The translations under genes were made by a program, and so were the position numbers. Positions 19,204 through 37,240 of a stretch of 64,000 nucleotides of DNA are shown here, piece after piece. The notes beneath the pieces were generated by a model. That model saw only the letters and a program-made list of their open reading frames with translations, did not search any database and was not told the DNA's origin. The stretch's first letter is position 1, and each line of letters starts with the position of its first letter. Source of the stretch: Brevibacterium sanguinis (GTDB taxonomy: Bacteria > Actinomycetota > Actinomycetes > Actinomycetales > Brevibacteriaceae); NCBI RefSeq assembly GCF_003315415.1, contig NZ_QNSB01000002.1, forward strand, positions 361,615-425,614. The letters run 5' to 3'.

Positions 19204-19276
19204 GGGGGTATGGCGCAATTGGTAGCGCATCTGCTTTGCAAGCAGAGGGTTAGGGGTTCGAGTCCCCTTACCTCCA
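19204..19276 (+). tRNA. tRNA-Ala (TGC), copy 1
   Basis: 73-nt cloverleaf with acceptor GGGGGTA/TACCTCC that carries the G3:U70 identity pair of tRNA-Ala, anticodon TGC in CTTTGCAAG and T-arm AGGGGTTCGAGTCCCCT. No CCA is encoded. Confidence 0.95.
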
Positions 19277-19287
19277 CAGAATCGAGG

Positions 19288-20155: not shown

Positions 20156-20182
20156 GACGACTGAGGACGAGGAGATGTGACA
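20156..20182 (-). promoter_or_regulatory. ECF41-type promoter of the NmrA-like gene
   Basis: On the minus strand TGTCACA (20182-20176), a 16-nt spacer and CGTC (20159-20156) match the ECF41 consensus exactly. The -35 element shares its first base with the start codon of the divergent sigma gene, and its spacer contains that gene's ribosome-binding site. Confidence 0.8.
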
Positions 20183-21042
20183 TGGAATTGTCGGAGAGGT
20201 TCGAGACGCAGCGGTCCCGACTGTACGCGATCGCCGTCCGACTCCTCGGTGGCTCGGCGGACGCCGAGGACGCCGTCCAGGAGACATGGCTGCGACTGAC
20301 CCGCAGCGAGGTCTCGACGATCGAGAACCTCGACGCCTGGCTGACCACCGTGGTCTCCCGGGTCTGCCTCGACCTGCTGCGCTCACCTCGGCGCACCCGC
20401 GAGCATTCCTGGCATGTCGAGTCGTGGACGGACGAACCCGTCGATCCGGCTCCGGATCCCGTCGACGCCGTCATCGAATCCGATCGGATCAGCGTCGCCC
20501 TGCTCATGGTGGTCGAGACTCTCAGTCCCGCGGAGAGGATCGCCTTTGTCCTCCACGACGTGTTCGGCCAGTCCTTCGACACCGTCGCCGACGTTGTGGA
20601 CCGGTCTCCCGAGGCGGCTCGTCAGCTCGCCTCCCGTGCCAGGCGCCGACTCCGGCAGAATGGTGAATCGGCAGGGCGCGACCGCCGCCGCGGAATGAGC
20701 CTCGTCTACGCATGGCGGCATGCGGTCGAGACCGGCGACTTGCGTACTCTCCTCGAGATGCTTGACGAGAACGCGGTCCTCCGGGCCGACTACGGTGAAC
20801 GGATCCAGGTCGTCGCAGGTGCCTCGGACATCGCCGCCCAGGCGGTCCAGATGAGCAGGCTCGCCGCCCAGTCGATCCCGGTTCTCGTCGACGGGATGCC
20901 CGGACTCGCCGCGGTGCACCGCTCACGCGTGGTCTCGGTCATGGCGTTCGTCATCACGGGCGGGACCATCGCCTCGCTCGAGGTCCTTGCCGATCCGGCC
21001 CGTCTCCCCTCCCTCCCCTGGTTCGAGGGGATGAGCTCATGA
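20182..21042 (+). CDS. ECF41/SigJ-type sigma factor with SnoaL-like tail
   Basis: A 286-aa extracytoplasmic-function sigma factor. Sigma region 2 (about 8-75) includes GSADAEDAVQETWLRL; region 4 (about 105-160) includes LSPAERIAFVLHDVFGQSFDTVADVV. The remaining 110 or so residues form a SnoaL/NTF2-like regulatory domain, as in SigJ and ECF41 proteins, which use this tail instead of an anti-sigma factor. It lacks the WLPEP, DGGGR and NPDKL motifs that mark typical ECF41 members, so it is a divergent one. AGGAG lies 7 nt before ATG 20182. A K+ channel gene follows after 31 nt. Confidence 0.88.
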   Translation: MELSERFETQRSRLYAIAVRLLGGSADAEDAVQETWLRLTRSEVSTIENLDAWLTTVVSRVCLDLLRSPRRTREHSWHVESWTDEPVDPAPDPVDAVIESDRISVALLMVVETLSPAERIAFVLHDVFGQSFDTVADVVDRSPEAARQLASRARRRLRQNGESAGRDRRRGMSLVYAWRHAVETGDLRTLLEMLDENAVLRADYGERIQVVAGASDIAAQAVQMSRLAAQSIPVLVDGMPGLAAVHRSRVVSVMAFVITGGTIASLEVLADPARLPSLPWFEGMSS

Positions 21043-22840: not shown

Positions 22841-22913
22841 GGGGGTATGGCGCAATTGGTAGCGCACCTGCTTTGCAAGCAGGGGGTTAGGGGTTCGAGT
22901 CCCCTTACCTCCA
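22841..22913 (+). tRNA. tRNA-Ala (TGC), copy 2
   Basis: 73-nt tRNA-Ala like the copy at 19204, with the G3:U70 pair and TGC anticodon. It differs by one base pair in the anticodon stem (ACCTGC/GCAGGG instead of ATCTGC/GCAGAG), so it is a diverged duplicate. Confidence 0.95.
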
Positions 22914-22946
22914 CTCGAGCAGCATTGAGACAGCACTCGCGGCACA

Positions 22947-33122: not shown

Positions 33123-33138
33123 GTACCAAATGGTACAT
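33121..33138. promoter_or_regulatory. palindromic operator over the monooxygenase start
   Basis: ATGTACCA-AA-TGGTACAT: two 8-bp arms around 2 nt. It covers the start codon and the -10-like TACCAT of the minus-strand gene, the usual placement for a TetR/MarR repressor. The TetR gene at 34345 is a candidate. Confidence 0.6.
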
Positions 33139-33214
33139 AGCCGATCCCAGCCCAACAAGGGTCTGTGACGGCCGTGGCCCTGACTCAGGAGTTGAATCAA
33201 GCGCTACACACGGG

Positions 33215-33263
33215 TCAGCATCCCTGAGAGGCCGTCCTCGACAGCGCGCACTCTCAGGGCTGA
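33215..33263. repeat. inverted repeat between the divergent flavoprotein genes
   Basis: TCAGC(AT)CCCTGAGAG on the left and CTCTCAGGGCTGA on the right form imperfect arms around a 20-nt middle, in the divergent promoter space. It could be an operator pair or a hairpin. Confidence 0.4.
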
Positions 33264-33279
33264 CGGACGACAAGAGTTA

Positions 33280-33291: not shown

Positions 33292-34320
33292 ATGGCTGCC
33301 GTGGAGATCGTCGGCGGCGGAATCGCGGGACTGACTCTGGCACGCGCCCTCCGACGACCGGACTGGACTGTGACGGTGCGCGAACGCACTGCGCCCGAAA
33401 CGAGGCGCGAGGTCGATACCGCCTTCGGCATGTGGCGCCCGGCGATGCATGCGCTGGACGCGATCGGCCTCGGCGAGACCGTGCGTCAGCAGGGGATCAG
33501 GGTCACGGGTGCCACCGTTCGCGCTGCTGACGATCGTGCCCTGCTGCGAAGCGGCCCCCAGGACATCGTGATGATCGGCCGCGCCAGCCTGCACCGGATC
33601 CTCCGCGAGTCCCTTCCCGAGTCGGTCATCTGGCGCACGGAGGAGATCGCCGATTCCCATGCTTTGGACGCCGAGGTGGTCGTCGGTGCCGATGGGGCGC
33701 GCAGTGCCGTGCGTCGAGATCATTGGGGTGAGCGCAGTGCCGCGCGCGTCCATGGGGCCACCGTGCTGCGAGGGGTGATCGAGCACGACCTGTCCGGCGG
33801 GGAGGTCACCGAGTACTGGGGCTCGGGCACGCTGTTCGGGATCACGCCGGTGCCGGGAGGGCGGACGAATTGGTTCACCGCGTTCCCCGGCCGGCGGTTC
33901 GCGGACGCCGAGGAGGGTCTCTCGCACATCAGGACTGTCGCTCGAGGTTTCCCCTCCCGAGTGTCCGACGTCCTCGCCGAGGCGACCGCCGAGCAGACGG
34001 TCGTCAGCGGAATCCATGTCTCGCGAGGACTGCGGTCATTCGTCCGTGGTCGTGCTGTGCTCATCGGCGATGCGGCCCACGCCATGACCCCCAACCTCGG
34101 GCGAGGGGCGTGTGAGGCGATCCGTGACGCGGTCGCCCTCGGCACTCTGCTGGGTCGATATGAGCCGAGTGAAGCGCTCGCCCGCTATTCCCGCAGGAGG
34201 CTGATCGCCCCACAGCTGATCCGCGCTGCTTCGAGCGTGGTCGCGCGTGTCGCTCTGGCCGAGGGCCGGGCGGCAGAGGCTCGCAACCGGCTCGCCGGGA
34301 TGCTGCCCCATCGCCCGTGA
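33292..34320 (+). CDS. FAD-dependent monooxygenase
   Basis: A 342-aa flavoprotein with the canonical N-terminal VEIVGGGIAGLTLARAL, the DG motif VVGADGARSAVR and the GD motif AVLIGDAAHAMTPNLGRGACEAIRD. It is shorter than the neighbour at 31638 and lacks the C-terminal domain, so it resembles the salicylate/zeaxanthin-epoxidase-like group. The preferred ATG 33292 has a -10 box 6 nt upstream and no ribosome-binding site, so the mRNA is probably leaderless. It is convergent with the TetR gene 24 nt beyond its stop. Confidence 0.86.
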   Translation: MAAVEIVGGGIAGLTLARALRRPDWTVTVRERTAPETRREVDTAFGMWRPAMHALDAIGLGETVRQQGIRVTGATVRAADDRALLRSGPQDIVMIGRASLHRILRESLPESVIWRTEEIADSHALDAEVVVGADGARSAVRRDHWGERSAARVHGATVLRGVIEHDLSGGEVTEYWGSGTLFGITPVPGGRTNWFTAFPGRRFADAEEGLSHIRTVARGFPSRVSDVLAEATAEQTVVSGIHVSRGLRSFVRGRAVLIGDAAHAMTPNLGRGACEAIRDAVALGTLLGRYEPSEALARYSRRRLIAPQLIRAASSVVARVALAEGRAAEARNRLAGMLPHRP

Positions 34321-34344
34321 AGGTGATCTCTGGTGCTGTCCTCC

Positions 34345-34899
34345 TCAGTTCGCGGACGGGGGGAACGTGGAGTCGAGGAGGCTGCGGACGGTGGCGTTCG
34401 CCGCATGGACGTCTCCGGTGAGCCTGAGTTCCCAGAGTGCGCCCCGCGCAGTCGAAACCCACAACCGGGCCAGGACCTCCGCGCGTTCGTCCGGCACTCC
34501 GGCCAGCCTCAGCCGACGCGACAAGCGGTCGATGTAGAGGGCCGCGCCTTCTTGGAACGACGTTCTCCACGGAGCGCCCTGCATCGCGGCGGCCGAGAGC
34601 TCGAACACCAGTGGCATGACCGAGCTGTCCCTGACCAGGGCCTGCCAGAACTGCCAGGCTCCTTCAACGGGATCGTCGAGGTGAGCTTCGGCAAACTGCT
34701 CGAGGATCTCCTGCTGGGCGTGCCAGATGTGATCGACGATCGCTGTCAGCAGACCTTCTCGGGACCCGAAGTGGTAGATGAGCATCCGGTGGCTGGTGCC
34801 GATGTTCGCCGCCAGTGTGCGCAGACTGACATCGCGAACTCCGTGCTCGATGAGATAATCGAGCACCTTCCCCAGCAGAGCGTCACGTGCGGTCGTCAC
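34345..34899 (-). CDS. TetR-family regulator
   Basis: A 184-aa regulator. The N-terminal HTH (about 20-50) reads DVSLRTLAANIGTSHRMLIYHFGSREGLL, typical of TetR, and the C-terminal helices form a ligand pocket. It starts at GTG 34899, just 11 nt after a TAG that is the duplicated stop codon of a DUF488 gene (repeat copy A), and TAGAAT spans that stop as a likely -10 box. It is the candidate repressor of the adjacent flavoprotein genes, but that is inference from context. Confidence 0.85.
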   Translation of the reverse strand: MTTARDALLGKVLDYLIEHGVRDVSLRTLAANIGTSHRMLIYHFGSREGLLTAIVDHIWHAQQEILEQFAEAHLDDPVEGAWQFWQALVRDSSVMPLVFELSAAAMQGAPWRTSFQEGAALYIDRLSRRLRLAGVPDERAEVLARLWVSTARGALWELRLTGDVHAANATVRSLLDSTFPPSAN

Positions 34900-34948
34900 A
34901 GGTGTCGATTCTATTGCGTCGCCTCCGCAGGGTCGGCGACCGGCGTCG
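34867..34948 (+). repeat. 82-bp direct repeat, copy A
   Basis: 77 of 82 bases match copy B (36639-36720), with no gaps. The copy contains the first codons of the TetR gene at 34345, its TAGAAT box and the last 10 or so codons of a DUF488 gene, without the rest of that gene. With copy B it brackets the ECF41/CMD module. Confidence 0.9.
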
Positions 34949-35079
34949 AATCTGAGCTGACCTGATCGGACGGAGACTTGGCCTCGGTTGCACGAGAGGT
35001 GGGACGACTATTCAGTCCCGCTCCAGTGCCGCTGAGAGAAACTCCGTCTGATCTCGCAGCACCTGCTGACGTTCACGGC

Positions 35080-35973
35080 TCAGTGCGCCCGGAGGGCACG
35101 CAGCTTGTCGGGGTTCCGGATCATCTGGATGCGTGTGACGACGTCGCCCTCGACCTCGAGCCAGACGACGGAGTCGATGCCCCGGTCATGCCGGGCGATG
35201 AAGGCGGGAGCGCCATTGACCTCGGTGAGTTCCCAGTTCAGGGCGACAGTCTCGGGTTTGCTCAGCACGCCGGCGATGAACCGGAGCACCTTGGCGGCGC
35301 CGGTGATGGGATTGAGTGCGGCCTTCGCCCGACCGCCGGCGTCCGTCGTCAGCACGACAGCGGGAGCAAGCACCGGCAGGACCTCCTCCAGAGGGACGGA
35401 TCCTTCAGCCGCTGCCAGGAACAGACGCGTCACGTCCCGGTGCGCATCCGGGCCGGCGGACCGCCTCGGCGCTCGGACGCGGATGGCCTTCCGTGCTCGG
35501 CTGACGAGCTGTCGCGTCGAGGTCTCGGACCGTCCGAGAGCCTCGGCGACCTCGGCATACGGCAATCCGAAGGCCTCCCGGAGCACGAACGCCGCCCGCT
35601 CGAGGTCGGTGAGCGATTCGAGCACGACGAGAAGGGCGAGCGACACCTCCTCAGCCACCTCGGCGAGGTGCCCGGGTTCGGAATCCGTTCCCGTCGCAAC
35701 AGGCTCCGGCAGCCATGGGCCGGGGTACTCCTCCCGGCGCCGGGACTGGGAGCGGGCGATGTTCAAAGCGACGCGGGTGACCGCCTTGAGGAGGTAGGAC
35801 CTGGGGTCGCGGATGTCCTGGAGGTCGACATCAGTCCAGCGCAGCCAGGTCTCCTGTACCGCGTCCTCGCTGTCCTGGACGGTGCCCAGGACGCGATAGG
35901 CCGCACCCAGCAAGGTGCCGCGGTGCTCCTCGAACACGTCCGCATGATGGTCTTCTCCGGTCACCGGCAGCAC
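35080..35973 (-). CDS. canonical ECF41 sigma factor with SnoaL-like C-domain
   Basis: A 297-aa ECF sigma. Region 2 has GTVQDSEDAVQETWLRW, region 4 ERAAFVLREAFGLPYAEVAEALGRS, and the linker has the ECF41 motif WLPEP near 93. The C-terminal NTF2-like domain shows DAGGR (consensus DGGGR) and ends NPDKLRAL, both ECF41 hallmarks. It starts at GTG 35973, 1 nt past the stop of the decarboxylase-like gene, so the two form an operon. The promoter upstream of that operon (36606-36632) matches the ECF41 pattern, which implies autoregulation. Confidence 0.92.
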   Translation of the reverse strand: MLPVTGEDHHADVFEEHRGTLLGAAYRVLGTVQDSEDAVQETWLRWTDVDLQDIRDPRSYLLKAVTRVALNIARSQSRRREEYPGPWLPEPVATGTDSEPGHLAEVAEEVSLALLVVLESLTDLERAAFVLREAFGLPYAEVAEALGRSETSTRQLVSRARKAIRVRAPRRSAGPDAHRDVTRLFLAAAEGSVPLEEVLPVLAPAVVLTTDAGGRAKAALNPITGAAKVLRFIAGVLSKPETVALNWELTEVNGAPAFIARHDRGIDSVVWLEVEGDVVTRIQMIRNPDKLRALRAH

Positions 35974-35974
35974 C

Positions 35975-36571
35975 TCAGCTCACTTCGCGAATGGGTACCT
36001 CACATTCTGCCTTGAATCCCTGGCTGGTCAGCCCCAGGCCGGCATTCGTGCGGGAGCGGAGATTCTCCAGGGAGACCAGGCTGGCAAGCTCGACGACCTG
36101 GGCGTCGGTCAGATCTTCGCGGAGGCATGCGACCATGTCGTCGGTGACCGTCGGCGGGGTCGCGGTCGCGGCGGCCGCGTACTCCATCACGGTGCGTTCG
36201 AGATTCGTGTAGGCCCTGCTGGTCCGCCACTGCGGGACATCGCGGAGCTTCGCGGGATCGATTCCCCTGTGGTGGTTCTCCCAGTAGCCGAAGTCCATGC
36301 ACCACGAGCACCCGATCTCCTGGGCGACGGTCATCACCGCCAGGGCCTGGAGACCCTGCGGGAGCTTCTTCCATCGCATCGCCGCCAGCTCGAATCCCAG
36401 GTAGGAGAATAGGACCGGGCGATGGTGGAAGGCGGCGCGGAAAGGATCGAGAACCTTGCCGTACATCTTCTCCGACACCCAGCCGAGTGCGGATTCGACG
36501 AGGCCCGACTTGTCCAGAGGGATGCGTGCGCTCGAGCGGTCGGAGTTGTTGGGGGAGCCGATGGTGTTCAT
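35975..36571 (-). CDS. carboxymuconolactone decarboxylase/AhpD-like protein; ECF41 partner
   Basis: A 198-aa protein of the CMD/AhpD superfamily. The redox motif GCSWCMDFG (near 86-94), a CxxC, and the following HHRGID are as in AhpD-like and YnjA-type proteins. This is one of the three classical gene types next to ECF41 sigma factors. It lies upstream of the sigma gene in the same operon, behind an ECF41 promoter. AAGGA precedes ATG 36571. A peroxidatic or quinone-related activity is only inferred. Confidence 0.88.
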   Translation of the reverse strand: MNTIGSPNNSDRSSARIPLDKSGLVESALGWVSEKMYGKVLDPFRAAFHHRPVLFSYLGFELAAMRWKKLPQGLQALAVMTVAQEIGCSWCMDFGYWENHHRGIDPAKLRDVPQWRTSRAYTNLERTVMEYAAAATATPPTVTDDMVACLREDLTDAQVVELASLVSLENLRSRTNAGLGLTSQGFKAECEVPIREVS

Positions 36572-36605
36572 CGTTGGTGTCCTTTCATTGAGAGGTCACC
36601 ATGGA

Positions 36606-36632
36606 GACACCGCTCGGCGAGTTTCTGTGACA
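36606..36632 (-). promoter_or_regulatory. ECF41-type promoter of the CMD-ECF41 operon
   Basis: On the minus strand TGTCACA (36632-36626), exactly 16 nt and TGTC (36609-36606) fit the ECF41 motif with one change in the -10 (CGTC to TGTC). It lies 35 nt upstream of the start of the decarboxylase-like gene. Confidence 0.75.
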
Positions 36633-36638
36633 TGTGAG

Positions 36639-36720
36639 CTTCCCCGGCAGAGCGTCACGTGCGGTCGTCTCAGCTGCCGATTCTATTGCGTCGCCTCCGC
36701 AGGGTCGGCGACCGGCGCCG
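36639..36720 (+). repeat. 82-bp direct repeat, copy B
   Basis: Copy B contains the intact 3' end of the DUF488 gene at 36683, its stop codon TAG and TAGAAT box, and a remnant of a TetR 5' end. In the remnant the GTG start is GAG and the frame is lost. It differs from copy A at five of 82 positions. Confidence 0.9.
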
Positions 36721-37240
36721 GATAGGTCACCGTTCCGTCGTCGCCGATGACCGCGCCCTCGCTCAGCTCCGCCGGCTTGACCTGGCCTCGGCCGAGGATG
36801 TGGGCGACCTCGTGGCCGCGGGCGAGCAGGTGGTCGGCGATGAGCCGGCGGTGGCACCGCCACCACACGGCCTCGGAGCACATCACCACAGTCGTCGCCG
36901 ACGCACCCCAGTCACGGAGCTCGTCGAGGCTCGACCGGAACTCGTCGGTCAGGGCGTGATCGGCGTAGTTGTGGAAGCTGCGGTTCCTCCACCACGCATT
37001 CACCTCGAAGGGGATCTCCTTGCTGACGTTTCGCCGCCCGGTCAGCCCGGGCAGACGGCGCAGCGCGACGTCCGCCTCGGCGAGGGACTTCTCGAGGGCG
37101 TCCTCGTCGAAATGGGGGTACTTCGTCGACCCGGGAAGCCGTCGGACGTCGACGACGAGGTCGATGTCGCTCTCGCCGAGGAGCTCGATGAACTCCTCGA
37201 TCGAGCGGTTGGAGTGGCCGATGGTGAAGAAGTGAGTCAT
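36683..37240 (-). CDS. DUF488 domain protein
   Basis: A 185-aa protein of the DUF488 family. Conserved segments are FFTIGHSNRSIEEFIELL, VVDVRRLPGSTKYPHF and, at the C-terminus, CSEAVWWRCHRRLIADHLLARGHEVAHI, the Cys/Cys-His region. The family is of unknown function; some members lie beside DNA-repair genes. The start overlaps the stop of the isocitrate-lyase-like gene (ATGA). Its final codons are duplicated in repeat copy A. Confidence 0.85.
   Translation of the reverse strand: MTHFFTIGHSNRSIEEFIELLGESDIDLVVDVRRLPGSTKYPHFDEDALEKSLAEADVALRRLPGLTGRRNVSKEIPFEVNAWWRNRSFHNYADHALTDEFRSSLDELRDWGASATTVVMCSEAVWWRCHRRLIADHLLARGHEVAHILGRGQVKPAELSEGAVIGDDGTVTYPAPVADPAEATQ

Follow-up and report, generated by a model that had tools for sequence, protein, structure and literature searches.

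The window analysed here, a stretch of 64,000 nucleotides from Brevibacterium sanguinis, contains a two-gene operon that encodes an ECF41-group sigma factor and a carboxymuconolactone-decarboxylase (CMD) family protein. On the minus strand, the genes follow the order PEP mutase, DUF488, CMD, ECF41, and TetR. Read from left to right with the gene fragments included, the locus consists of TetR, a DUF488 3′ relict, a MerR/hydrolase 3′ relict, ECF41-CMD, a TetR 5′ relict, and DUF488. The features listed below are compared with those of two sister species, whose genomes are designated G050 and G051; the latter is a draft of approximately 250 contigs and is 87% complete.

33138..33276, no strand assigned: gap of 139 bp between two FAD monooxygenases (FAD2 and FAD1), where G051 has a 6.8-kb block
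34345..34899, minus strand: TetR-family regulator, an intact open frame with 82% identity to its G051 counterpart
34867..34948, no strand assigned: left repeat copy, in which the TetR 5′ end is in use and the DUF488 3′ end is a relict
34911..34948, minus strand: DUF488 3′ end relict, stop codon retained
34948..34965, plus strand: MerR regulator 3′ end relict, reading ESELT-stop (ESELN-stop in G051), within a 75% match to L075:3084-3221 of G051
35012..35077, minus strand: alpha/beta hydrolase 3′ end relict, reading QQVLRDQTEFLSAALERD-stop; the whole G051 gene ends at L075:3162
35080..35973, minus strand: ECF41-group (SigJ-type) sigma factor
35975..36571, minus strand: CMD family protein, upstream of ECF41
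36606..36632, minus strand: predicted ECF41-type promoter, TGTCACA (-35), 15-nt spacer, and GTGTC (-10), conserved before CMD in G050 and G051
36639..36671, minus strand: TetR 5′ end relict
36639..36720, no strand assigned: right repeat copy, in which the DUF488 3′ end is in use and the TetR 5′ end is a relict whose start GTG reads GAG
36683..37240, minus strand: DUF488 gene, an intact open frame

Realignment bore out the repeat that an earlier, sequence-only reading had placed around the operon: 34867-34948 and 36639-36720 agree at 77 of 82 positions without gaps, and a repeat finder traced the similarity further, over 85 nt at 93% identity. The longest exact run within the pair is 40 nt, and 100 first-order Markov resamplings of the same 10 kb yielded none longer than 17 nt. 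The copies are separated by 1,690 nt, and each consists, as that reading had also described, of a DUF488 3′ end fused to a TetR 5′ end, with a spacing of 11 bp between them. In the left copy TetR starts at 34899, and in the right copy the DUF488 stop lies at 36683. A search with 161 bp spanning the left copy returned no third copy from the organism's own genome (G000, 3.77 Mb in 23 contigs). Other exact direct repeats of at least 24 nt in the 64 kb are limited to a tRNA-Ala pair and a 12-nt tandem repeat; the tRNA-Ala(TGC) genes concerned (19204-19277 and 22841-22914) are near-identical and lie 3.6 kb apart.

The content of the insert differs from what had been claimed for it. Rather than the operon and its promoter only, which occupy 35080-36632, the interval also holds about 120 nt of MerR/hydrolase relict (34948-35077). 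A compact insert flanked by direct repeats would be expected from transposition of a mobile element with target-site duplication, but 82 nt is too long for such a short duplication, the usual ones being far shorter. Moreover, no transposase was found among the 18 window proteins scanned, which represent part of the window's genes, and target duplication leaves the MerR/hydrolase relict unexplained. The probability of transposition is close to negligible.

The ECF41-CMD operon and its predicted promoter

The sigma factor belongs to the ECF41 group, as indicated by a WLPEP motif at residue 87 in the linker between sigma2 and sigma4. It has the C-terminal extension of about 100 residues that the group shows beyond region 4, which ends here near residue 165 of 297, and the extension gives no SnoaL hit in Pfam. 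It also contains NPDKL and DAGGR, which we take to be ECF41 motifs. Among NCBIfam models, SigJ scores 293.1 bits (cut-off 271) and SigX4 scores 288.3 bits (cut-off 323.25). Two further ECF41-like sigma factors are encoded in the same genome: one in the window at 20182-21042 (plus strand), beside an ion-channel gene and with 35% identity to the operon protein, and another at G000:C1:509983-510828, with 37% identity. The operon proteins are ordinary; what stands out is their genomic place and its history.

The COE gene (CMD) lies beside ECF41 and is preceded by the predicted promoter TGTCACA-N15-GTGTC. When the three promoters were aligned and a pattern was fitted to them, the entire own genome (G000) gave a single match, before CMD. 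G050 gave two matches and G051 one; the reversed control gave 0, 0, and 1 in G000, G050, and G051. The second G050 match lies away from CMD, at G050:C13:14228-14255. The fitted -10 element is GTGTC, and the ECF41 -10 element has been given as TGTT or CGTC (PMC3426412), so these counts miss targets of either form. The same paper reports that no ECF41 target other than the COE gene is detectable in Bacillus licheniformis and Rhodobacter sphaeroides. Taken together, the single promoter match and the restriction of ECF41 to its COE gene elsewhere lead us to predict that the CMD-ECF41 unit is self-contained and tolerant of moving. As the sigma factor and its own promoter travel together, the unit could change place without losing its regulation.

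A scan of the minus strand between 34300 and 36800 found no terminator-like site, from which it is predicted that TetR is now read from the ECF41 operon. A sigma-70 promoter scan of 34300-36800 returned none on either strand, and the fold of the ECF41-TetR spacer is not unusual (z -1.59); in a G+C-rich actinomycete, such scans carry little weight.

The undivided junction and the operon places in sister species

The sequence-only reading had predicted a relative in which DUF488 and TetR are contiguous and ECF41/CMD is lacking from between them, and G051 has this arrangement. Its order at L075 is FAD1, TetR, 11 bp, DUF488, and PEP mutase. The junction occurs once, ECF41 and CMD are both missing from that place, and FAD1 and PEP mutase flank the TetR-DUF488 pair as they do in the window. 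The G051 junction (L075:9694-9775) is identical to the two window copies at 67 of 82 and 66 of 82 positions. These observations support the earlier interpretation that the DUF488-TetR junction was once undivided and was probably split later by the operon.

The closest DUF488 proteins among the 56 other genomes of the genus are those of G050 (82%) and G051 (79%). A survey of DUF488 gave 41 match rows in 40 genomes, from which 30 loci, the own one included, were taken with approximately 1.5 kb on each side; 29 of these come from other genomes (39 of the 56 had a match). TetR stands beside DUF488 at one of the 29, in G051. Neither ECF41 nor CMD was found at any of the 29 within the approximately 1.5 kb read on each side, and thus no locus in that span combined DUF488, ECF41/CMD, and TetR while lacking the second repeat copy, an arrangement that had been named in advance as contrary evidence. 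Among the 30 loci, the own one is alone in having ECF41/CMD; its TetR lies beyond the short locus taken and adjoins it in the window. TetR is present at 82% identity or more in 2 of the 57 genomes, the next best being 32%, and a search with the protein returned relatives at 82% and then 65%. In G050, the DUF488 match is followed 31 bp later by a homologue of window 31537 (L076:8231-8263), and because DUF488 joins this homologue almost directly, the FAD2-FAD1-TetR block is absent at that place.

The relative age of the copies can be judged with G051 as an outside reference. At 13 positions the two window copies share a letter that G051 does not have, and at 5 positions the copies themselves differ. 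Three of the five changes fall in the right copy, two in its TetR relict (one being GTG to GAG at the start codon) and one in the gap; two fall in the left copy, one in the gap and one in the DUF488 relict. The left-copy difference at 34946 may be part of the joined MerR sequence and no mutation. None of the five lies in a coding half still in use, a weak signal given that all five would avoid those halves by chance in about 6% of cases (93 of 164 sites). The excess of shared over between-copy differences indicates that the copies most likely arose after the split from G051.

The sequence-only reading had proposed dating the copies against synonymous divergence. The five changes, set against the 93 sites that are either relict or non-coding, amount to 0.05, whereas the differences between G000 and G051 at fourfold sites of four resident genes reach 0.31-0.44, split over two lineages. 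This comparison, which involves small numbers, would place the duplication roughly within the last third or less of the branch leading to this lineage.

Alternatively, the two-copy arrangement could be ancestral, and G051 could have lost the operon here through recombination between the repeats. Direct repeats would permit such an exact loop-out, and the G051 junction is about equally near both copies (67 and 66 of 82). Nevertheless, the 77 of 82 positions at which the copies agree, together with the 13 differences that they share against G051, would need gene conversion, which may indeed explain the shared differences, and the operon is present elsewhere in G051. We therefore regard an ancestral two-copy state as very improbable.

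ECF41 at 79% identity or more is restricted to 3 of the 57 genomes (G000, G050, and G051), the next best being 44%; at E 0.001, 54 of the 57 have matches to more distant sigma factors, ECF41-like or not. The operon orthologues lie at G050:C23 and G051:C40. In G050, the operon is located between an enolase-superfamily gene (gene1) and a RibD_C gene (X1); in the own genome (G000:C6), gene1 and X1 are 14 bp apart with no operon between them. Another 9 of the 57 genomes searched gave strong gene1 matches, and X1 was beside gene1 in none of the 9 within the stretch taken. In G051, the operon is on the opposite side of the RibD_C/AraC pair, next to a TetR gene and an FAD oxidase gene. The segment concerned, L078:4751-10344, carries CMD-ECF41 beside TetR and a large FAD-oxidase/4Fe-4S protein, and the G000 counterparts of its flanks are approximately 180 bp apart without that segment. 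The sequence shared by the operon in all three species ends at the ECF41 stop codon on one side and at the promoter -35 element on the other. With orthologues at two other places and the G050-type place empty in this genome, the operon has most likely changed place among the sister species.

Three species with the operon at three sites, and an ECF41 of at least 79% identity in only 3 of 57 genomes, could also reflect separate gains by horizontal transfer. The three ECF41 proteins, on the other hand, form one clade with support of 100/99. The tree drew on 54 of the 120 proteins listed, namely the first 47 plus 7 picked by hand, and near-identical database entries (293/294 and 290/294) stood in for G050 and G051. 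No other protein exceeds 67% identity among the best 120 of 3,382 hits, many of the named ones being from Brachybacterium. A scan of named genomes (at least 24 loci), from which the own genome may have been missing, gave Brachybacterium squillarum, at 60%, as the closest outside Brevibacterium among the matches listed. Synonymous divergence of ECF41 and CMD (0.44-0.65) either resembles that of other genes (0.52-0.87) or falls somewhat below it, in comparisons that leave out the two pairs with G050 PEP mutase. Separate horizontal gains are, for these reasons, improbable. Exchange between close relatives is possible, because the synonymous divergence of the operon from G050 (0.435 and 0.556) is below that of gene1, X1, and DUF488 (0.736-0.874).

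The MerR/hydrolase piece and the proposed history

The sequence that follows the left repeat copy bears on how the operon reached its present place. Window positions 34933-35071 match L075:3084-3221 at 75% (105/140, E 2e-19), a G051 stretch that spans the tail-to-tail boundary between MerR and alpha/beta hydrolase genes. In G051, the pair is approximately 6 kb from the junction, on the TetR side and in the same orientation as the window relict, and forms part of the 6.8-kb block between FAD2 and FAD1. This block (L075:1196-8016) comprises an SDR fragment, an NmrA-like gene, MerR, the hydrolase, an FAD monooxygenase, a membrane protein, and two TetRs, named by eye except for MerR, the hydrolase, and the FAD enzyme. 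Flanks and relict aside, three short matches (44-99 bp) to the block and no fuller copy of it were found in the own genome, with 40 of 263 candidates scored. The hydrolase has a full-length counterpart in G051 alone among the 57 genus genomes, 12 others giving weak and mostly partial matches; in the own genome, the best match to the protein is a partial one of 29%.

On balance, the operon probably arrived here when the neighbouring segment was duplicated in tandem and opposite sets of genes then disappeared from its two copies. Beforehand, the operon would have stood on the TetR side, next to the hydrolase gene; we infer this place, since the operon was found beside MerR/hydrolase in none of the 57 genomes. 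The duplicated segment would have had one limit at the MerR 3′ end and the other just inside DUF488, with the hydrolase, the operon, FAD1, and TetR between these limits. Its head-to-tail duplication would have joined the DUF488 3′ end to the MerR 3′ end. From the first copy, the MerR-to-operon block would have been lost and FAD1-TetR kept; from the second, the hydrolase body, FAD1, and most of TetR would have been lost and the operon kept. The 82-nt repeat would be what remains of the duplicated end. With its own predicted ECF41 promoter, the operon would function at either place, and TetR likely shifted from the DUF488 transcription unit to a position downstream of ECF41.

The arrangement of the second unit is consistent with such a history: its beginning is sequence from the upstream side, not inverted, which directly adjoins the end of the first unit, the DUF488 3′ relict being followed by the MerR/hydrolase ends as in L075:3084-3221. 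Tandem duplication is favoured because the side, order, and orientation of the MerR/hydrolase piece fit it, and random capture would not give them. Of the two scenarios offered by the sequence-only reading, tandem duplication with gene loss is thus retained, while entry of the sigma module with duplication of the junction loses ground to the MerR/hydrolase relict. What counts against the duplication is that the FAD2-FAD1 gap (33138-33276) has no recognisable remnant of the lost block, the search there giving nothing better than E 0.14. In addition, the duplication needs an earlier move of the operon or a separate insertion beside the hydrolase.

A single insertion would derive the repeat, the relict piece, and the operon from one event. 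Repair, through template switching or fragment capture at a staggered double-strand break, would have brought the MerR/hydrolase piece together with the operon into the junction, by copying or by ligation, re-entry 82 nt behind the exit point having duplicated the junction. The Ku end-joining protein is encoded in all three genomes searched for it, and the breakpoints, judged by eye, share only a few letters. A single insertion nevertheless does not predict that the relict originates approximately 6 kb away, on the TetR side and in the same orientation, and it needs separate losses for the operon at its old site and for the 6.8-kb block. We consider it less likely than tandem duplication with subsequent loss, of which it is the main rival. 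Combining these lines, we tentatively propose that the locus is a bacterial fossil of duplication and reciprocal loss, with four gene relict ends (DUF488, MerR, hydrolase, and TetR) in the predicted order, and that the self-promoting CMD-ECF41 may be an itinerant regulatory unit that moved repeatedly among three sister Brevibacterium species.

Comparison with known systems

Gene-order change in bacteria is mostly inferred once its traces have gone. The present locus suggests that the ends of dead genes, short as they are, can persist in a legible form and in an order that can be worked out, and it provides a searchable signature: a repeated gene junction in which one end of each gene is dead per copy, with a third operon in between. 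It may also help to explain the varied neighbours of ECF41-COE operons. In the open-licence literature, no account of such a locus was found. The operon itself resembles the ECF41 systems with COE genes described by Wecke et al. (2012, PMC3426412) in its COE-ECF order, TGTCACA -35 element, WLPEP linker motif, and long C-terminal extension.

In mitochondrial duplication-random loss, relict pieces are found at the predicted places. Tandem duplication and random loss is a usual explanation for the gene orders of animal mitochondria (PMC5745709, PMC4223735), and the elements described there are the same as here: a duplicated segment, loss of opposite copies, and a new gene order. The present case differs in that it concerns a bacterial chromosome, its relicts are protein-gene ends of 18-66 nt, and the state before duplication is partly reconstructed.

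For bacteria, the SNAP hypothesis (Brandis and Hughes 2020, PMC7055797) explains gene order by duplication followed by reciprocal gene inactivation, the same two steps as those proposed here. That paper reports early steps in isolates, states that there is no direct empirical evidence for duplication and reciprocal loss behind the rearrangements of modern species, and suggests a search for pseudogenes with matching active copies. The SNAP duplications are described as spanning tens of kilobases or more and as being kept by selection, whereas the unit proposed here would be approximately 8 kb, judged from G051. Elsewhere, duplication with asymmetrical loss is mentioned as one possible mechanism for changes in a ribosomal operon cluster, the precise mechanisms being left undetermined in that account (PMC8046335), and another paper holds that its own gene clusters oppose SNAP for want of duplicated genes (PMC10531765). 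Against this background, the Brevibacterium locus is a known kind of rearrangement that is unusually well preserved here.
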